From Clostridia bacterium (lineage in GTDB: Bacteria > Bacillota > Clostridia > Oscillospirales > Acutalibacteraceae), in contig JAFQEE010000002.1 of the NCBI GenBank assembly GCA_017399175.1, positions 1 to 39,969 on the forward strand: DNA of 39,969 nt, given 5' to 3'. Below, piece after piece: positions 143 to 3,986 of this stretch. The notes beneath the pieces are model-generated. The model was not told the DNA's origin, searched no databases, and saw nothing but the letters and a program-made list of their open reading frames with translations. Numbering within the stretch: the stretch's first letter is position 1; the number at the start of each line of letters is the position of its first letter. Made by a program: the position numbers and the translations under genes.

Positions 143-172
143 CACAATAAAGGAGGGTGCGAAACCCTCCTT
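143..172 (-). terminator. Intrinsic terminator of the lysis cassette
   Basis: A 9-bp perfect stem (AAGGAGGGT / ACCCTCCTT on the minus strand) with a 5-base loop is followed by TTTATTGTG. It lies 10 bases past the holin stop codon and closes the minus-strand transcription unit. The U-tract is short. Confidence 0.75.
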
Positions 173-182
173 ATCTGTTATG

Positions 183-428
183 CTATTCCTTTTTCTTCAA
201 CTGCTTTACTATCTGATTTCCGTAAACTGCTGTGCCTGTTACAAGGACACCCTGCACTACACTTTCAGGTGAAAGTCCCATAATGGCAATAGCACCTACA
301 ACACCAATTCCTGAAAGTATAATCGGAATAAATTTATCGGGAATTTTCTCTGTATCCTTTAAGATTACGCCGATTATATTAAGTACAGGAATGAGTATGA
401 GTGCATTTTCTGTAATAAATTCTATCAT
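183..428 (-). CDS. Phage-type holin (Hol44 / holin 5-like)
   Basis: An 81-residue membrane protein. It has a hydrophobic N-terminal helix (about residues 5-24), a charged turn (DTEKIPDKF), a second hydrophobic segment (about 33-55) and a short amphipathic region ending in a Lys-rich tail (KQLKKKE). This layout and the VYGNQIVKQLKKKE-type end match small clostridial phage holins, which permeabilise the membrane so that an endolysin can reach the wall. The RBS AAAGGAG lies 6 bases before the ATG. It is the last gene of the cassette, downstream of XhlA and a GH25 lysozyme, which supports the call. The exact holin family is from memory and not searched. Confidence 0.82.
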   Translation of the reverse strand: MIEFITENALILIPVLNIIGVILKDTEKIPDKFIPIILSGIGVVGAIAIMGLSPESVVQGVLVTGTAVYGNQIVKQLKKKE

Positions 429-443
429 AAATTTCTCCTTTTA

Positions 444-701
444 CTATTTAATAAACAAGCTGACCACAGCTCCGCAGACAGCACCCATAAAAGCCACAAT
501 CAGCTTATCCCACAATGATGCCGGTCGCTTTTTCAGTGCTTCAATGCTCTCTTTCAGTTCACCCAAGGTCACAAGCATACTGTCAAGTTTTGTAACGCTT
601 TGCACCTGAGTAAGAGTGACCTCGTTGATTTTTTTATAGAGAATTTTTATATCCTCTTCCACAGTATCGAGTCTGTGATTTATAACATCCGTTTCTGTCA
701 T
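444..701 (-). CDS. XhlA-like hemolysin / lysis accessory protein
   Basis: About 85 residues. The N-terminal two thirds form a heptad-type coiled coil (INHRLDTVEEDIKILYKKI onward), followed by one C-terminal transmembrane helix (about residues 62-82, LIVAFMGAVCGAVVSLFI). This is the XhlA architecture; XhlA acts with a holin and lysozyme in PBSX-like lysis cassettes. I chose the ATG at 701 because GGAGTG lies a good distance upstream. An ATG at 719 would add MKWSDV and overlap the lysozyme stop, but has a weaker site. Gene order lysozyme-XhlA-holin is the usual lysis order. Confidence 0.83.
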   Translation of the reverse strand: MTETDVINHRLDTVEEDIKILYKKINEVTLTQVQSVTKLDSMLVTLGELKESIEALKKRPASLWDKLIVAFMGAVCGAVVSLFIK

Positions 702-705
702 AACA

Positions 706-1590
706 TCACTCCATTTCACTCTTTTTCACATAACCTGTCACATTCTGACCCACAGGTCTTTTAAAAACTTTGTCCTTGGAGTTTGTTATTCTCATTCTGT
801 TATTCATAACCTTGTCGTCATATATGTAGTATTCACCACTGATTGTGTTTACCTCTTTTGACGCAGTTGCGGTAGCATAAAGCTTTGTATTTTTTAGTTT
901 CACTTTTTCTCCTGCAGCGAAGTTTTTTGTTACAGGTTTGGTGTTTTCCTGTTTTGACGGTTTGCCTTTCTCATAACCATTAAGACCGTTAAGCTTCATA
1001 ATTGACGGATAATGCTTATATGCTTCATTCAAATCCACATAACCGTTGATTCCGTCAACCTTACCCCTTGAGCTCTTCTGCCAGAGACCGTAAGGCTTAT
1101 CGAATGTGGGTTTTTCTGTCCATTGTGCAAGCCAGATATCGTAATTTTCAAAAATTTCGTCCTCAAAGTAGTTGTCAAGCCAATGCTTGTTGGCGTAAAT
1201 ACAGACATAATATCCGTAACTTTCCATTTTCTCGCAGAAGGCTTTTGCAATCTGTGAAATCTTTTTTCTCCCAAGAGAAGCAACTCCCGATTCCTCCATA
1301 TCGTATGCTATGGGATATTCAAAGGTCTTGCCCTTGAGTGCTGAATGGCAATATTCAGCCTCCTTGACCGCTTCTTCAGGTGTTCTTGCATAAGAGTAAT
1401 GGTATGCACCAACAGGAATACCTACTTTTTTAGCACCCTCATAATTGATATCAAAAAGAATGTCTGTGTTGCCTTTTCCCCAACCAAAAGTGGCACGAAT
1501 CATAGCAAACTGAATACCGTCAGCCTTGACGAGATTCCAGTTGATTCTCCCCTGCCACTTTGAAACATCTATCCCTTTATATACTGACAT
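706..1590 (-). CDS. GH25 lysozyme (endolysin) with SH3-like wall-binding domain
   Basis: About 294 residues. The N-terminal GH25 muramidase domain (about residues 1-205) carries the family landmarks GIDVSKWQG (Asp8) and YPIAYDMEESG (Asp97, Glu99). GH25 enzymes cleave the MurNAc-GlcNAc bond of peptidoglycan. After a linker, residues about 220-290 look like a bacterial SH3 domain (EVNTISGEYYIYDD..MRITNSKDKVFKRP) that would bind the wall. There is no signal peptide, so release depends on the holin encoded two genes downstream. I chose the ATG at 1590 because GGTGGTGAG lies just upstream; an upstream ATG at 1608 overlaps the preceding stop codon. It is translationally close to both neighbours. 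Confidence 0.93.
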   Translation of the reverse strand: MSVYKGIDVSKWQGRINWNLVKADGIQFAMIRATFGWGKGNTDILFDINYEGAKKVGIPVGAYHYSYARTPEEAVKEAEYCHSALKGKTFEYPIAYDMEESGVASLGRKKISQIAKAFCEKMESYGYYVCIYANKHWLDNYFEDEIFENYDIWLAQWTEKPTFDKPYGLWQKSSRGKVDGINGYVDLNEAYKHYPSIMKLNGLNGYEKGKPSKQENTKPVTKNFAAGEKVKLKNTKLYATATASKEVNTISGEYYIYDDKVMNNRMRITNSKDKVFKRPVGQNVTGYVKKSEME

Positions 1591-1604
1591 AAACTCACCA
1601 CCCA

Positions 1605-2354
1605 TCATCCTAATCGTGCAAGAATTTTTGCAATTTCAGCATCTACATATTCTTTTGATACTGAATTTTCAAGTTTTGTTTTGTCTTCATCGGTAAAGTC
1701 ATTTGTTGAAAGGCCTTTACCATCTTCCTTTTGCACAGTATTTCTCGTAATATAACTGACAACAGATTGTTCAAAATTTTTAAATGCATCATCCATTATA
1801 ACCTGTACTTCATCTGCTATTTTCTGGATGTACTCTACAATCACCTTGTTCTGAACAGCGTTTTCACTATATTTTGACATTTTTGTATCAATAGTAATGC
1901 TATCTCCCTTTTCACCTTTGAATGTGCCAAGTCGGATTGCCTCCAGCAACGCGTTGATTGAAAAGTCATTTTCCCTTGCGATTGAATTGTCCGTATCAGG
2001 AGAATAGTCAAATGACAGACAGAATTTTCTCGGTTTTACAACCTGTACCGTATTACCGTCTTCATCAATACTTATAATATTAAAATAACATTCAACACCT
2101 TTAAGGCAAGTCATTGTCATAGGAATATTATAGGTTATGGTATTTGCTTCTGTGTCCAAAGCAAGATATTGTGTTCTGACCTTTGTGCCCATAAGTGAAC
2201 GGTATTCGATATAGTATCTGTAATCTCCTATGTAATCAGGAGCAATATTAAATTTTAATGTTGTGGCGTTATGTTCCCACATAACACCTGCGTTTTCGTT
2301 GATTTCTCCTTGACTGTCGGGAGTAATATCAATAGAAATAATTTTATTTTCCAT
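1605..2354 (-). CDS. BppU-like phage baseplate upper / fibre protein
   Basis: A 249-residue protein. The N-terminal half is a beta-rich region (IISIDITPDSQGEINENAGV; YIEYRSLMGTKVRTQYLALD), as in the baseplate upper protein domains of Gram-positive siphophages. The middle has a short collagen-like GEKGDS segment, then YSENAVQNKVI, a helical stretch, and the motif KGLSTNDFTDEDKTKLE seen in many phage fibre proteins. It probably forms a trimeric fibre or receptor-binding piece. RBS ATAAGGAG. Its stop overlaps the region of the alternative lysozyme start. No tail tube, tape-measure or other baseplate gene lies nearby, so its role in a lysis cassette is unexplained. The family call rests on motif recall. 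Confidence 0.65.
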   Translation of the reverse strand: MENKIISIDITPDSQGEINENAGVMWEHNATTLKFNIAPDYIGDYRYYIEYRSLMGTKVRTQYLALDTEANTITYNIPMTMTCLKGVECYFNIISIDEDGNTVQVVKPRKFCLSFDYSPDTDNSIARENDFSINALLEAIRLGTFKGEKGDSITIDTKMSKYSENAVQNKVIVEYIQKIADEVQVIMDDAFKNFEQSVVSYITRNTVQKEDGKGLSTNDFTDEDKTKLENSVSKEYVDAEIAKILARLG

Positions 2355-2364
2355 AAAAATCTCC

Positions 2365-2589
2365 TTATTTTTTATAATAATTTTTAAGTTGTAAGGCTGT
2401 GTGCTCCATTTCGTATTTTATCTGGTAAAATTTGCGAAGCTTCCTTTCAAGCTCCTTAACAGCCGTTTGGTCCCCCGACTCTTTTGCCTTTTCAATGTCT
2501 TTTTTGCATCGATTTATAAAAAAATTCTGCAATGAAATATGATTTTCATATTCCTTTCCAAGCTCTGCAAGTGTTTTTTCAGTTTTCAA
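2365..2589 (-). CDS. Small charged coiled-coil protein, unknown function
   Basis: 74 residues, almost wholly helical and charged (ELGKEYENHISLQNFFINR; AVKELERKLRKFYQIKYEME). I do not recognise a family. The start is a TTG at 2587-2589 with GGAGGCGC just upstream, and it overlaps the last 11 bases of the HTH gene, so the two are probably translationally coupled. Its place between the regulator and the baseplate-like gene suggests a small structural or regulatory role in the cassette, but nothing in the sequence shows which. Confidence 0.7.
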   Translation of the reverse strand: MKTEKTLAELGKEYENHISLQNFFINRCKKDIEKAKESGDQTAVKELERKLRKFYQIKYEMEHTALQLKNYYKK

Positions 2590-2998
2590 ATTGCGCCTCC
2601 ATAGAAGTTGCTTTCTTAATCTGGGATAAAAAATCCTCCTTATGAGGAGGTTTTAATATTTCATTATAAAAAAGCACATATTTCAATGATGTTTCCAGTT
2701 TTTTCTTTATGGTGTCAATTGTTCTGTAAAAGGACGAGCGTGATATACAATATTTTTCAGAAATATCACCGATTGACATTTTGTTCTGCCAATAATCAAT
2801 GGCAATATTACGCTCTTTTGCTGTAAGTTCGTTCTGCATAACCGACCTTACCGTATCCATAAGTTTTCGTCTTTTGTCATACACAAGATATCTGACAAGT
2901 GTTTCGGCTGACTTTTTATCAACGACCTCAAAATTTTCCGTGAGATAGAAATATTCTTCTGTCGAGATACATTCCAACTGTCCGCTTTTATAAAGCAT
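2579..2998 (-). CDS. Sigma-70 region 4-like HTH regulator
   Basis: 139 residues. The C-terminal half holds a sigma region 4 / ArpU-like helix-turn-helix (LTAKERNIAIDYWQNKMSI, then GDISEKYCISRSSFYRTID, about residues 65-110). No region 2 is visible, so it is not a complete sigma factor. I chose the ATG at 2998 because AAAGGAGGG lies 7 bases upstream; the frame is open further upstream, but across the promoter and SOS box. It is the first gene of the cassette. By analogy with late regulators of phages and UviA-type regulators of bacteriocin release, it could drive or tune the cassette. That is inference. Confidence 0.72.
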   Translation of the reverse strand: MLYKSGQLECISTEEYFYLTENFEVVDKKSAETLVRYLVYDKRRKLMDTVRSVMQNELTAKERNIAIDYWQNKMSIGDISEKYCISRSSFYRTIDTIKKKLETSLKYVLFYNEILKPPHKEDFLSQIKKATSMEAQFEN

Positions 2999-3055
2999 TA
3001 AAATCCCTCCTTTTGAAAAAAGAAAAACGCATATATTTTCATACACACGTTTTAT

Positions 3056-3069
3056 CGAACATTTGTTCG
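3056..3069. promoter_or_regulatory. LexA (SOS) box, perfect palindrome
   Basis: The 14-mer CGAACATTTGTTCG has perfect 5-bp arms and fits the Gram-positive LexA/DinR consensus CGAAC-N4-GTTCG. It lies just downstream of the -10 box of the cassette promoter, where bound LexA would block transcription start. It implies induction of the lysis cassette by DNA damage. Confidence 0.85.
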
Positions 3070-3082
3070 CCTTGCAATTTCT

Positions 3083-3111
3083 ATTGTAGCAGTAATTTTT
3101 ATTGTTGTCAA
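3083..3111 (-). promoter_or_regulatory. Sigma-A promoter of the lysis cassette
   Basis: On the minus strand, TTGACA (3106-3111) and TACAAT (3083-3088) are separated by exactly 17 bases. This is a near-consensus housekeeping promoter that would be strong unless repressed. The LexA box lies 13 bases after the -10. Confidence 0.85.
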
Positions 3112-3183: not shown

Positions 3184-3384
3184 TTATTTGAAAATAATAC
3201 CGATGATTTCACCCAACGCTCTTAAAATATTAGCAAATAAATCAATAATTGTATCAATAAAACTTATTGTGTCTGTAGGAAGTTCACTTGGAAGCTCCGC
3301 AGCATCTGCGCCTGCTGCAAACGCAGTAACACACATAGCCAACATCATAGCAACTGTAAGTGCCATTGAAAGTGCTTTTTTCAT
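3184..3384 (-). CDS. Small secreted peptide with amphipathic C-terminus
   Basis: 66 residues. Residues 1-23 form a classic signal peptide (MKKALSMALTVAMMLAMCV, then TAFA and probable cleavage). The mature part, about 43 residues, starts acidic and proline-containing (ADAAELPSELPTD) and ends in a hydrophobic/amphipathic helix (ISFIDTIIDLFANILRALG, then EIIGIIFK). RBS AAAGGAA before the ATG. It has its own strong promoter and terminator. It resembles short exported peptides of unknown role in clostridia. A membrane-active peptide is possible, but no immunity, processing or transport gene sits beside it. Confidence 0.75.
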   Translation of the reverse strand: MKKALSMALTVAMMLAMCVTAFAAGADAAELPSELPTDTISFIDTIIDLFANILRALGEIIGIIFK

Positions 3385-3593: not shown

Positions 3594-3782
3594 ATGCTTT
3601 TTGGTAAGAAAAAACAGGCAGAAAAGAACAGAGAAACCCGAAAGGAAATCAAAAAAATCAGTGAAGAAATTGCAAAAATCTGGAACAGCGAAGAAGATAC
3701 AAAGCAGTTTGACGCAGAAGGCTGGTACACAGGAAATCCAAAGGATGCAGAAGTTCCCGTTCAGGACGCGGATGATTTGTAA
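3594..3782 (+). CDS. Small Lys-rich/acidic protein, unknown
   Basis: 62 residues. The N-terminal half is very basic and helical (FGKKKQAEKNRETRKEIKK), and the C-terminal half is acidic and probably extended (FDAEGWYTGNPKDAEVPV, ending DADDL). There are no membrane segments. GGGGGTG lies 6 bases before the ATG. A longer overlapping frame from 3541 has no comparable ribosome site and a less natural composition, so I treat this frame as the gene. Family and function are not recognised. Confidence 0.6.
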   Translation: MLFGKKKQAEKNRETRKEIKKISEEIAKIWNSEEDTKQFDAEGWYTGNPKDAEVPVQDADDL

Positions 3783-3809: not shown

Positions 3810-3812
3810 TTT

Positions 3813-3930
3813 GGCTCCCTCTGACGAGGGAGCTGTCAACGGAGTTGACTGAGGGAGAGATTTAGTGAAAGGATAATCCTATCTCTCCCTCCGTCTGCTA
3901 TCGCAGACACCTCCCTCGTCAGAGGGAGGC
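3813..3930. repeat. Family B palindromic repeat (CTCCCTCTGACGAGGGAG type)
   Basis: The left arm GGCTCCCTCTGACGAGGGAG and the right arm CTCCCTCGTCAGAGGGAGGC are inverted copies. Between them lie nested small hairpins (GTCAACGGAGTTGAC; GTCTGCTATCGCAGAC). A second copy starts at the very end of the window. It holds no gene. Together with the rimP promoter and leader it fills the 338-base gap before rimP. Confidence 0.9.
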
Positions 3931-3986
3931 AAAGCACGATACTCCTATACATTATAAATGAAAAAGAACCAATTTCCAAAAAAGGG

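Follow-up and report, generated by a model that had tools for sequence, protein, structure and literature searches.

The left end of a 39,969-nucleotide contig from an uncultured gut Clostridia bacterium of the Acutalibacteraceae (GenBank JAFQEE010000002.1; this whole stretch, which is the entire contig C21 of the 72 contigs in the 2.11-Mb assembly GCA_017399175.1, here genome G000, is called the window) carries on its minus strand, from position 3111 to 150, an operon that very probably represents a domesticated, phage-derived SOS lysis cassette, predicted to be triggered by DNA damage. It consists of a promoter, a LexA palindrome, a leader hairpin, the genes for a helix-turn-helix (HTH) regulator, the coiled-coil-like protein cc74, a fibre-like protein, a GH25 endolysin, an XhlA-like protein and a Hol44 holin, and a terminator-like hairpin, in this order; adjoining genes overlap or are at most about 15 bases apart. 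The cassette is core to its genus and has relatives in other genera. It is akin in its working to the alp or the PBSX lysis genes and a member of neither. An earlier note made from the window had proposed a domesticated lysis or release device, and this proposal is supported by the housekeeping flanks in relatives and by a holin that is single-copy in nearly all of the genus. Nearly all genomes of the genus keep the cassette without a phage, so that a built-in burst program upon DNA damage is probable.

In the proposed mechanism, a strong promoter would be blocked by LexA bound immediately past its start site, until LexA is cleaved after DNA damage and the operon is transcribed. The holin would then open the membrane, and the GH25 lysozyme would cut the wall with help of the XhlA-like protein, so that part of the cells would lyse or form vesicles and their contents would be set free. 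In the genus of the window, the leader would probably provide a second lock in the form of an intrinsic terminator that keeps basal expression low, and the HTH protein, which resembles sigma region 4, may carry RNA polymerase past this terminator and so sharpen the switch. Damage-triggered programmed lysis is understood in detail for few bacteria, in most cases in connection with a prophage or a bacteriocin. Here, it looks like a core-genome part of a gut genus, and in other genera related regulators with an SOS box are followed by varied lysins and holins. Should this hold, antibiotics that damage DNA would be a direct cause of lysis in a fraction of these gut bacteria, whose contents would be set free. 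The locus would then also offer a clean setting, free of phage, in which to study why a lysis program is retained by bacteria.

Conservation, position and selection

The search for the unit in related genomes, which the earlier note had proposed, found a cassette, defined as genes for HTH, GH25 and a holin or holin-like protein in the same orientation, in 38 of the 39 genomes of the genus; the remaining genome (G005) displayed a contig end with the holin only. The holin profile had a match in 37 of the 39 genomes and the holin was present in single copy, the exceptions being G021 with two copies and G000, where a second hit was very weak. The two genomes without Hol44, G034 and G030, possess another small membrane protein, phi-LC3-like as judged by eye, between the fibre gene and the GH25 gene. 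Either of two forms of an XhlA-like gene was present in 37 of the 38 cassettes, and 28 of them contained the fibre gene. In the ten without it (L153, L155-L159, L161-L163 and L166), the gene order is HTH, optionally the coiled-coil protein, GH25, XhlA and holin, and all of them have a LexA core in front and no space for a fibre gene. This indicates that the fibre is dispensable and the lysis unit is not. The N-terminal domain of the fibre protein was found in 26 of 59 genomes, all of them among the 36 genus genomes in this set (that of the window included), and, in a sample of 345 genomes from the order, in 8, with five in the genus and three weak matches outside (E values of 3.7e-8, 1.0e-6 and 6.9e-4). 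As a separate observation, the second holin copy of G021 (L160, 7642-7884), where the HTH and GH25 genes of the cassette were not detected, perhaps belongs to a prophage.

Twelve of the 38 cassettes, including that of the window, adjoin rimP-nusA. A ClpC-like gene (by eye) is located upstream in 10 of the 26 mapped loci, mostly together with an McsB-like gene, and others lie beside glycogen-synthase-like or other housekeeping genes. The identity of cassette proteins to those of the window followed the identity of nusA across the 11 rimP-sited relatives, which are not independent points, with Spearman coefficients of 0.82 for GH25, 0.77 for the holin, 0.89 for XhlA and 0.79 for HTH. This trend fits a presumed vertical descent with few relocations.

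The window starts at contig position 1 and the sequence further to the left is unassembled, so that the question of a phage on this side was put to the relatives. A dispersed repeat of about 124 bp at 18-141 adjoins the contig start and may be the reason for the contig stop; a second one is located at 3812-3931, and these repeats of about 120 bp each have dozens of copies in the genome. The flank set was composed of the nearest two open reading frames (ORFs) of 150 to 800 amino acids (aa) per side, where present, and comprised 122 proteins; 37 of the 38 loci contributed to it, all but L064, and longer ORFs such as ClpC were dropped. Among the 25 of 78 Pfam families listed, housekeeping functions prevailed, such as RimP, an McsB-like kinase (Pfam ATP:guanido phosphotransferase, 10 of the 122 proteins), sugar transferase, aldolase and acyltransferase. 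Two members contain a HerA-type ATPase. The 25 of 34 PHROG families listed included “tape measure” for 3 of the 122 proteins (best match, 6.4e-10), “terminase large subunit” for 2 (best match, 1.9e-10) and a transposase for 1; the first two labels are read as cross-matches, as judged at the level of the family and not of the individual protein. No phage structural module was seen beside the cassette in the flanks of the relatives among the families listed. The absence of phage structural genes near the cassette, stated in the earlier note, was thus borne out by the housekeeping flanks of the relatives, its own left flank being unassembled.

The Ka/Ks ratios of close pairs were 0.025 to 0.099 for GH25 (12 pairs), 0.039 to 0.153 for XhlA (11 pairs), 0.023 to 0.199 for the holin in 12 of 13 pairs, 0.08 to 0.28 for HTH in 11 of 12 pairs (one was saturated) and 0.136 to 0.345 for the fibre (8 pairs), with rimP at 0.050 to 0.062 and nusA at 0.035 to 0.056 as references (4 pairs each); some of the Ks values were above 2 and near saturation. 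In the four pairs that also had rimP and nusA, the ratios were 0.025 to 0.063 for GH25, 0.023 to 0.054 for the holin and 0.057 to 0.122 for xhlA. The GH25 and holin genes are constrained about like housekeeping genes, with HTH and particularly the fibre under looser constraint.

LexA box, leader hairpin and regulator

The near-consensus promoter agrees with the consensus in 11 of 12 positions (TTGACA-17-TACAAT) and is kept across the parsed leaders, as the earlier note had read it in the window. Promoter-like sites were not more common in the window than after shuffling (16 versus a mean of 14.3), so that the support for the promoter comes from its conservation. The LexA box, CGAACATTTGTTCG at 3056-3069, is the sole zero-mismatch copy of CGAACN4GTTCG in the assembly, and its centre is about 20 nucleotides (nt) past the −10 motif, which is just beyond the likely start site; the perfect LexA box at the start site was thereby confirmed. 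A GAACN4GTTC core was present at the cassette promoter in 31 of the 38 cassettes, and in 24 of these 31 the 14-mer was CGAACAAATGTTCG or its reverse complement. The box centre was 18 to 20 nt after the −10 motif in the parsed leaders, with the exception of L069, where it was between −35 and −10. Genome G000 contains one lexA gene with GAACAAATGTTT about 78 bp before its start, and GAACAAATGTTT or GAACATTTGTGC, each one core base off the cassette box, was found upstream of lexA in 22 of the 29 lexA loci of the genus. Searches for clostridial LexA sites used the pattern GAACN4GTTT/C (PMC4234289, available in part). The conservation of the box and the like core before lexA back the control of the operon by LexA that the note had assumed. 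A LexA-like box is also located directly before a 94-aa ORF of G000 (L173, 1500-1801) with one membrane segment by eye and no Pfam match, which is possibly an SOS cell-division inhibitor.

Between the LexA box and the HTH gene, a hairpin at 3024-3053 had been missed in the earlier note. In every one of the 37 parsed leaders, the HTH gene was separated from the promoter by one stem-loop with a T-run behind it, with a mean of −16.9 kcal/mol; the leader of L074, which the promoter pattern missed and which is outside these 37, is alike by eye. The energy of the real hairpin was reached by 13 of 1,110 dinucleotide shuffles, and −9.5 kcal/mol or below was reached by all 37 leaders versus 23 of 188 stretches of 125 nt upstream of other ORFs in the same loci. 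RNAalifold returned 10 pairs, 5 of them with compensatory changes, for 26 of the 37 hairpins, picked by hand. A terminator-like hairpin, read from the sequence, is present between the promoter and the lysis genes, and the chances that it is a working attenuator would be about even. This hairpin in all parsed leaders is the new element here and suggests a putative second lock like that of the alp pathway; no description of the cassette was found in the titles and abstracts listed from the open-licence literature in PMC.

The HTH protein matched UPF0122/YlxM (E value of 1.6e-5) and sigma region 4, and two longer relatives from another genus (L234 and L236) possess Sigma70_r4 together with a Cro/C1 HTH_3 domain. 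A function as antiterminator is possible, if doubtful, and was derived by analogy. In Pseudomonas, AlpA of the alp pathway has its binding site between −35 and −10 and takes the polymerase past an intrinsic terminator into the lysis genes (PMC7969949, available in part), and GafZ, a sigma-like HTH protein, does likewise for a gene transfer agent (PMC11150451, available in part). GafZ is an antiterminator proposed to bind between −35 and −10 (PMC11150451 and PMC9638019, both available in part). The HTH protein is encoded behind the terminator, so that as antiterminator it would feed back on itself.

In the family as a whole, the HTH profile matched 193 of the 200 genomes, mostly with weak hits of the YlxM or sigma kind. 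For the 20 genomes outside the genus with the strongest matches, from 14 genera, the best place of each was looked at. The approximately 340 to 680 nt that precede the HTH hit contained a LexA-like box in 11 of the 20, from 8 genera (the core being perfect in 6 and having one mismatch in 5), compared to 113 of 4,000 random 450-nt windows; L241 with a box about 2.7 kb from the HTH gene and L240 with a box outside the scanned stretch are not part of the 11. A lysin and/or holin-type gene was located downstream in 10 of the 13 loci mapped in detail: GH25 in L237, L241, L242 and L244 (L237, L241 and L244 by tblastn alone), NlpC/P60 in L238 and L240, M15 in L239, amidase_3 in L250, M23 with an SPP1-type holin in L253, and only a holin in L248. 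At L235, a locus outside the 13, genes for HTH, coiled-coil, fibre-like and NlpC-like proteins were recognized by eye, and no box was found. Parts are exchanged and the arrangement is kept, with another holin-like protein in 2 genomes and varied lysins behind a related regulator. A wider interpretation is offered tentatively and is more doubtful than probable: an ancestral programmed lysis of a family of gut Clostridia, composed of an SOS-boxed HTH and coiled-coil pair, exchangeable lysins and holins and often a fibre with variable tip, in which the regulator would be, in the genus of the window, an antiterminator behind its own terminator, so that self-feeding read-through after LexA cleavage would commit single cells. 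As an odd host-type addition, a type I dockerin ends three of the lysins (L238, 4974-5639; L240, 409-1092; L242, 9704-10522) and could tie them to cohesin-bearing host structures.

Known systems and alternative explanations

The earlier note had compared the unit with bacteriocin release of the UviA/UviB type. UviA/UviB of Clostridium perfringens are a DNA-damage-controlled sigma-like regulator and a holin-like protein encoded on a bacteriocin plasmid. The likeness in logic holds and the parts differ, the cassette having a PF16079 holin, a full endolysin and a chromosomal site; a UviB/BhlA-type holin, for which Pfam includes a model, was not found, only PF16079 matching in Pfam at an E value of 0.1 or below. 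A closer parallel is alpRABCDE of Pseudomonas aeruginosa, which shares the damage-driven autocleavage of a repressor, the intrinsic terminator before the lysis genes and the host-kept death program (PMC7969949, available in part). In contrast to alp as described there, the box of the cassette is that of LexA, the regulator gene is inside the operon past the hairpin, and the parts are of the Gram-positive phage type. An AlpR-like dedicated repressor gene was not present among the six proteins of the operon and the two small neighbours, the left side being unassembled. PBSX xhlAB-xlyA of Bacillus subtilis, which cause lysis and vesicles, likewise tie an XhlA-type protein, a holin and an endolysin to DNA damage; however, PBSX is a prophage, whereas the cassette is a free-standing unit that has a LexA-boxed promoter and a regulator of its own (PMC5589764, available in part). 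The regulators GafA and GafYZ of gene transfer agents are also sigma-factor-like HTH proteins over domesticated phage genes, but a Cro/C1-type second domain as in the regulators from the other genus is unmentioned in the available parts of PMC11150451 and PMC9638019.

The alternative offered in the earlier note, that the cassette is the fibre and lysis end of a decaying prophage to the left of the window, is highly improbable. It would agree with the contig end right beside the cassette, with the order fibre-lysin-XhlA-holin that is familiar from phage late regions, and with some public records. A holin scan of IMG/VR yielded at least 9 viral contigs, and on one of them, L108, a lysin-like ORF (by eye) and a holin relative come after a distant relative of the fibre (27% identity, E value of 3e-7); GH25 relatives below 60% identity occur in 111 phage records. 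On the other side, the IMG/VR scans aimed at the fibre, HTH (two queries) and GH25 confirmed no relative, apart from L108, which came from the holin scan. In a phage collection, the long-form HTH had no match and the HTH of the window matched a single record, MT835647.1 (L254), which was also the best GH25 match. This unverified “Bacteriophage sp.” scaffold from human faeces contains the cassette, the box and the leader; the genes that come next look bacterial (sugar metabolism and glycosyltransferases, by eye, no profile scan), and the scaffold appears to be a mislabelled bacterial fragment; lysis genes alone are no prophage marker. The presence of the unit in nearly all genomes of the genus, the mostly single-copy holin, the recurrent housekeeping sites, purifying selection and the conserved promoter, LexA box and leader do not agree with decay either, and a prophage remnant was rejected on grounds of conservation, position and selection.

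The cassette may instead serve a phage-tail-like bacteriocin (tailocin) or a gene transfer agent, with the particle genes elsewhere in the chromosome, as release arm and source of the fibre, which is unlikely. The fibre gene in 28 of the cassettes, the enzyme-domain tips in the three cases examined and a sigma-like regulator reminiscent of those of gene transfer agents point in this direction, but ten cassettes lack the fibre gene, and the tail sheath (PF04984) was found in 2 of the 39 genomes of the genus and Dit (PF05709) in 1, none of these in G000, in a search that did not cover terminase, portal or other tail families. The Dit profile responds in just 1 of 14 control genomes, so that a divergent non-contractile tail could be missed. 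A tailocin was rejected with sheath and Dit being nearly absent, the Dit profile being insensitive. A device for secretion or vesicle release, similar to Type 10 secretion systems or to PBSX-like vesiculation, which exports the fibre or vesicles instead of killing, is somewhat less improbable and still doubtful. PBSX xhlAB-xlyA, with like parts, add to vesicle release after DNA damage (PMC5589764, available in part), and Type 10 secretion systems are host-owned phage-derived holin and endolysin cassettes as well; they differ by the LexA-type control of the cassette, for which no exported cargo was identified, and the fibre as the obvious cargo is absent in 10 of the 38 cassettes. Altruistic defence, with lysis triggered by damage from phages or rivals before phage progeny mature, could use an SOS-type box and could be conserved throughout a genus, yet nothing pointing to defence was seen in the neighbourhood, for which no scan with a defence library was made, and this explanation is quite unlikely.

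A number of observations also weigh against a domesticated, SOS-controlled lysis cassette as the preferred interpretation. No cargo was identified. The genome-wide pattern GAACN4GTTY occurred at 57+68 sites, below the 121+133 sites of the reversed control, and a narrower box pattern at 7+9 sites compared to 11+12 in the reversed control was not enriched, so that the box was judged by its conservation; the nine sites of the narrower pattern included no clear repair gene besides lexA. Neither GAACAAATGTTT nor GAACATTTGTGC was present at 7 of the 29 lexA loci. No LexA core was found in 7 of the 38 cassettes (L070, L071, L077-L080 and L165), which indicates that SOS control is not universal. These seven share another promoter sequence, TTGACAAGTAACA, which suggests another input, and their genomes kept GAACAAATGTTTG at lexA in five cases and GAACATTTGTGC in the other two; in these cassettes, SOS control is seemingly lost or replaced. 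The hairpin of the window leader taken alone was not beyond chance, with 2 of 30 shuffles reaching its energy, so that it is supported by homology and not by energy. Outside the genus, a hairpin of −9.5 kcal/mol or below followed the box in 2 of 13 loci, L248 and L241, the latter with a box that is not at its HTH gene; with the hairpin weak or absent in most of these leaders, the second lock seems to be peculiar to the genus of the window. LexA-boxed operons of HTH and coiled-coil genes without lysis genes downstream exist in L234, L236 and L243, the other three of the 13 loci mapped in detail, so that the regulator pair may have a further role. A cc74-type gene was detected in just 16 of the 38 cassettes, and the holin of the pair L070-L071 had a Ka/Ks ratio of 1.9, on a Ks of 0.017.

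Parts of the operon and neighbouring genes

The coordinates of the features are listed in Table 1. Five of the six genes named in the earlier note were found as named, those for HTH, the small coiled-coil protein, GH25, XhlA and holin, as was its own terminator in the form of a terminator-like hairpin, but the label “BppU” for the remaining gene is without a profile match.

Table 1. Features of the cassette on the minus strand of the window
Feature	Position	Strand	Remark
−35 hexamer TTGACA	3106..3111	-	TTGACA in 37 of 37 parsed leaders
−10 hexamer TACAAT, extended (TG upstream), 17-nt spacer	3083..3088	-	
LexA box, perfect palindrome CGAACAAATGTTCG (minus strand)	3056..3069	-	core kept in 31 of 38 cassettes
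Putative attenuator in the leader, a terminator-like hairpin with TCTTTTTTC behind it	3024..3053	-	−11.1 kcal/mol
HTH regulator, 139 aa, sigma-region-4/YlxM-like	2579..2998	-	start codon read from sequence
cc74, coiled-coil-like protein, 74 aa, start TTG, overlaps HTH gene	2365..2589	-	coiled coil by eye
Fibre-like protein, 249 aa	1605..2354	-	in relatives, N-terminal domain conserved and C-terminal part variable
GH25 endolysin, 300 aa	706..1608	-	Pfam E value 7.4e-33
XhlA-like protein, 91 aa	444..719	-	C-terminal membrane segment by eye
Hol44-type holin, 81 aa	183..428	-	PF16079, E value 5.5e-20
Terminator-like hairpin closing the operon	150..172	-	T-richness of the tail only moderate

The most likely start of the HTH gene is the ATG at 2998 with a Shine-Dalgarno sequence in front, in a frame that is open from 3151. 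A holin and an endolysin of phage families are both present, as indicated by PF16079, GH25 and the PHROG holin and endolysin matches; the catalytic motifs of the GH25 family, judged by eye, are presumably retained. The XhlA-like protein was matched by Pfam with an E value of 0.044, under the Pfam cut-off, and by the PHROG “hemolysin” with 2e-7. No BppU model matched the fibre-like protein of the window or any of the 26 N-terminal domains of its family, and the PHROG tail-fibre families matched at most 2 of the 26 members each; on this basis, the identity as BppU was rejected. The weak tail-fibre matches may stem from collagen-like repeats, and collagen-like GDK repeats are present in many of the fibre proteins. 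The tips of the fibre vary, with a GDSL hydrolase in L064 and L080 and a phosphodiester glycosidase in L062. A comparison of the fibre domain with the PDB gave nothing convincing.

Next to the cassette, the window encodes a 66-aa peptide (3184-3384) with a signal-like start and an amphipathic tail (by eye) and with its own promoter-like and terminator-like sites. Longer homologues of this peptide, for instance of 209 to 270 aa and with a C-terminal membrane anchor by eye, are located at the same place in rimP-sited relatives. A 62-aa protein (3594-3782) is kept beside rimP in the 11 rimP-sited relatives with 41 to 63% identity.

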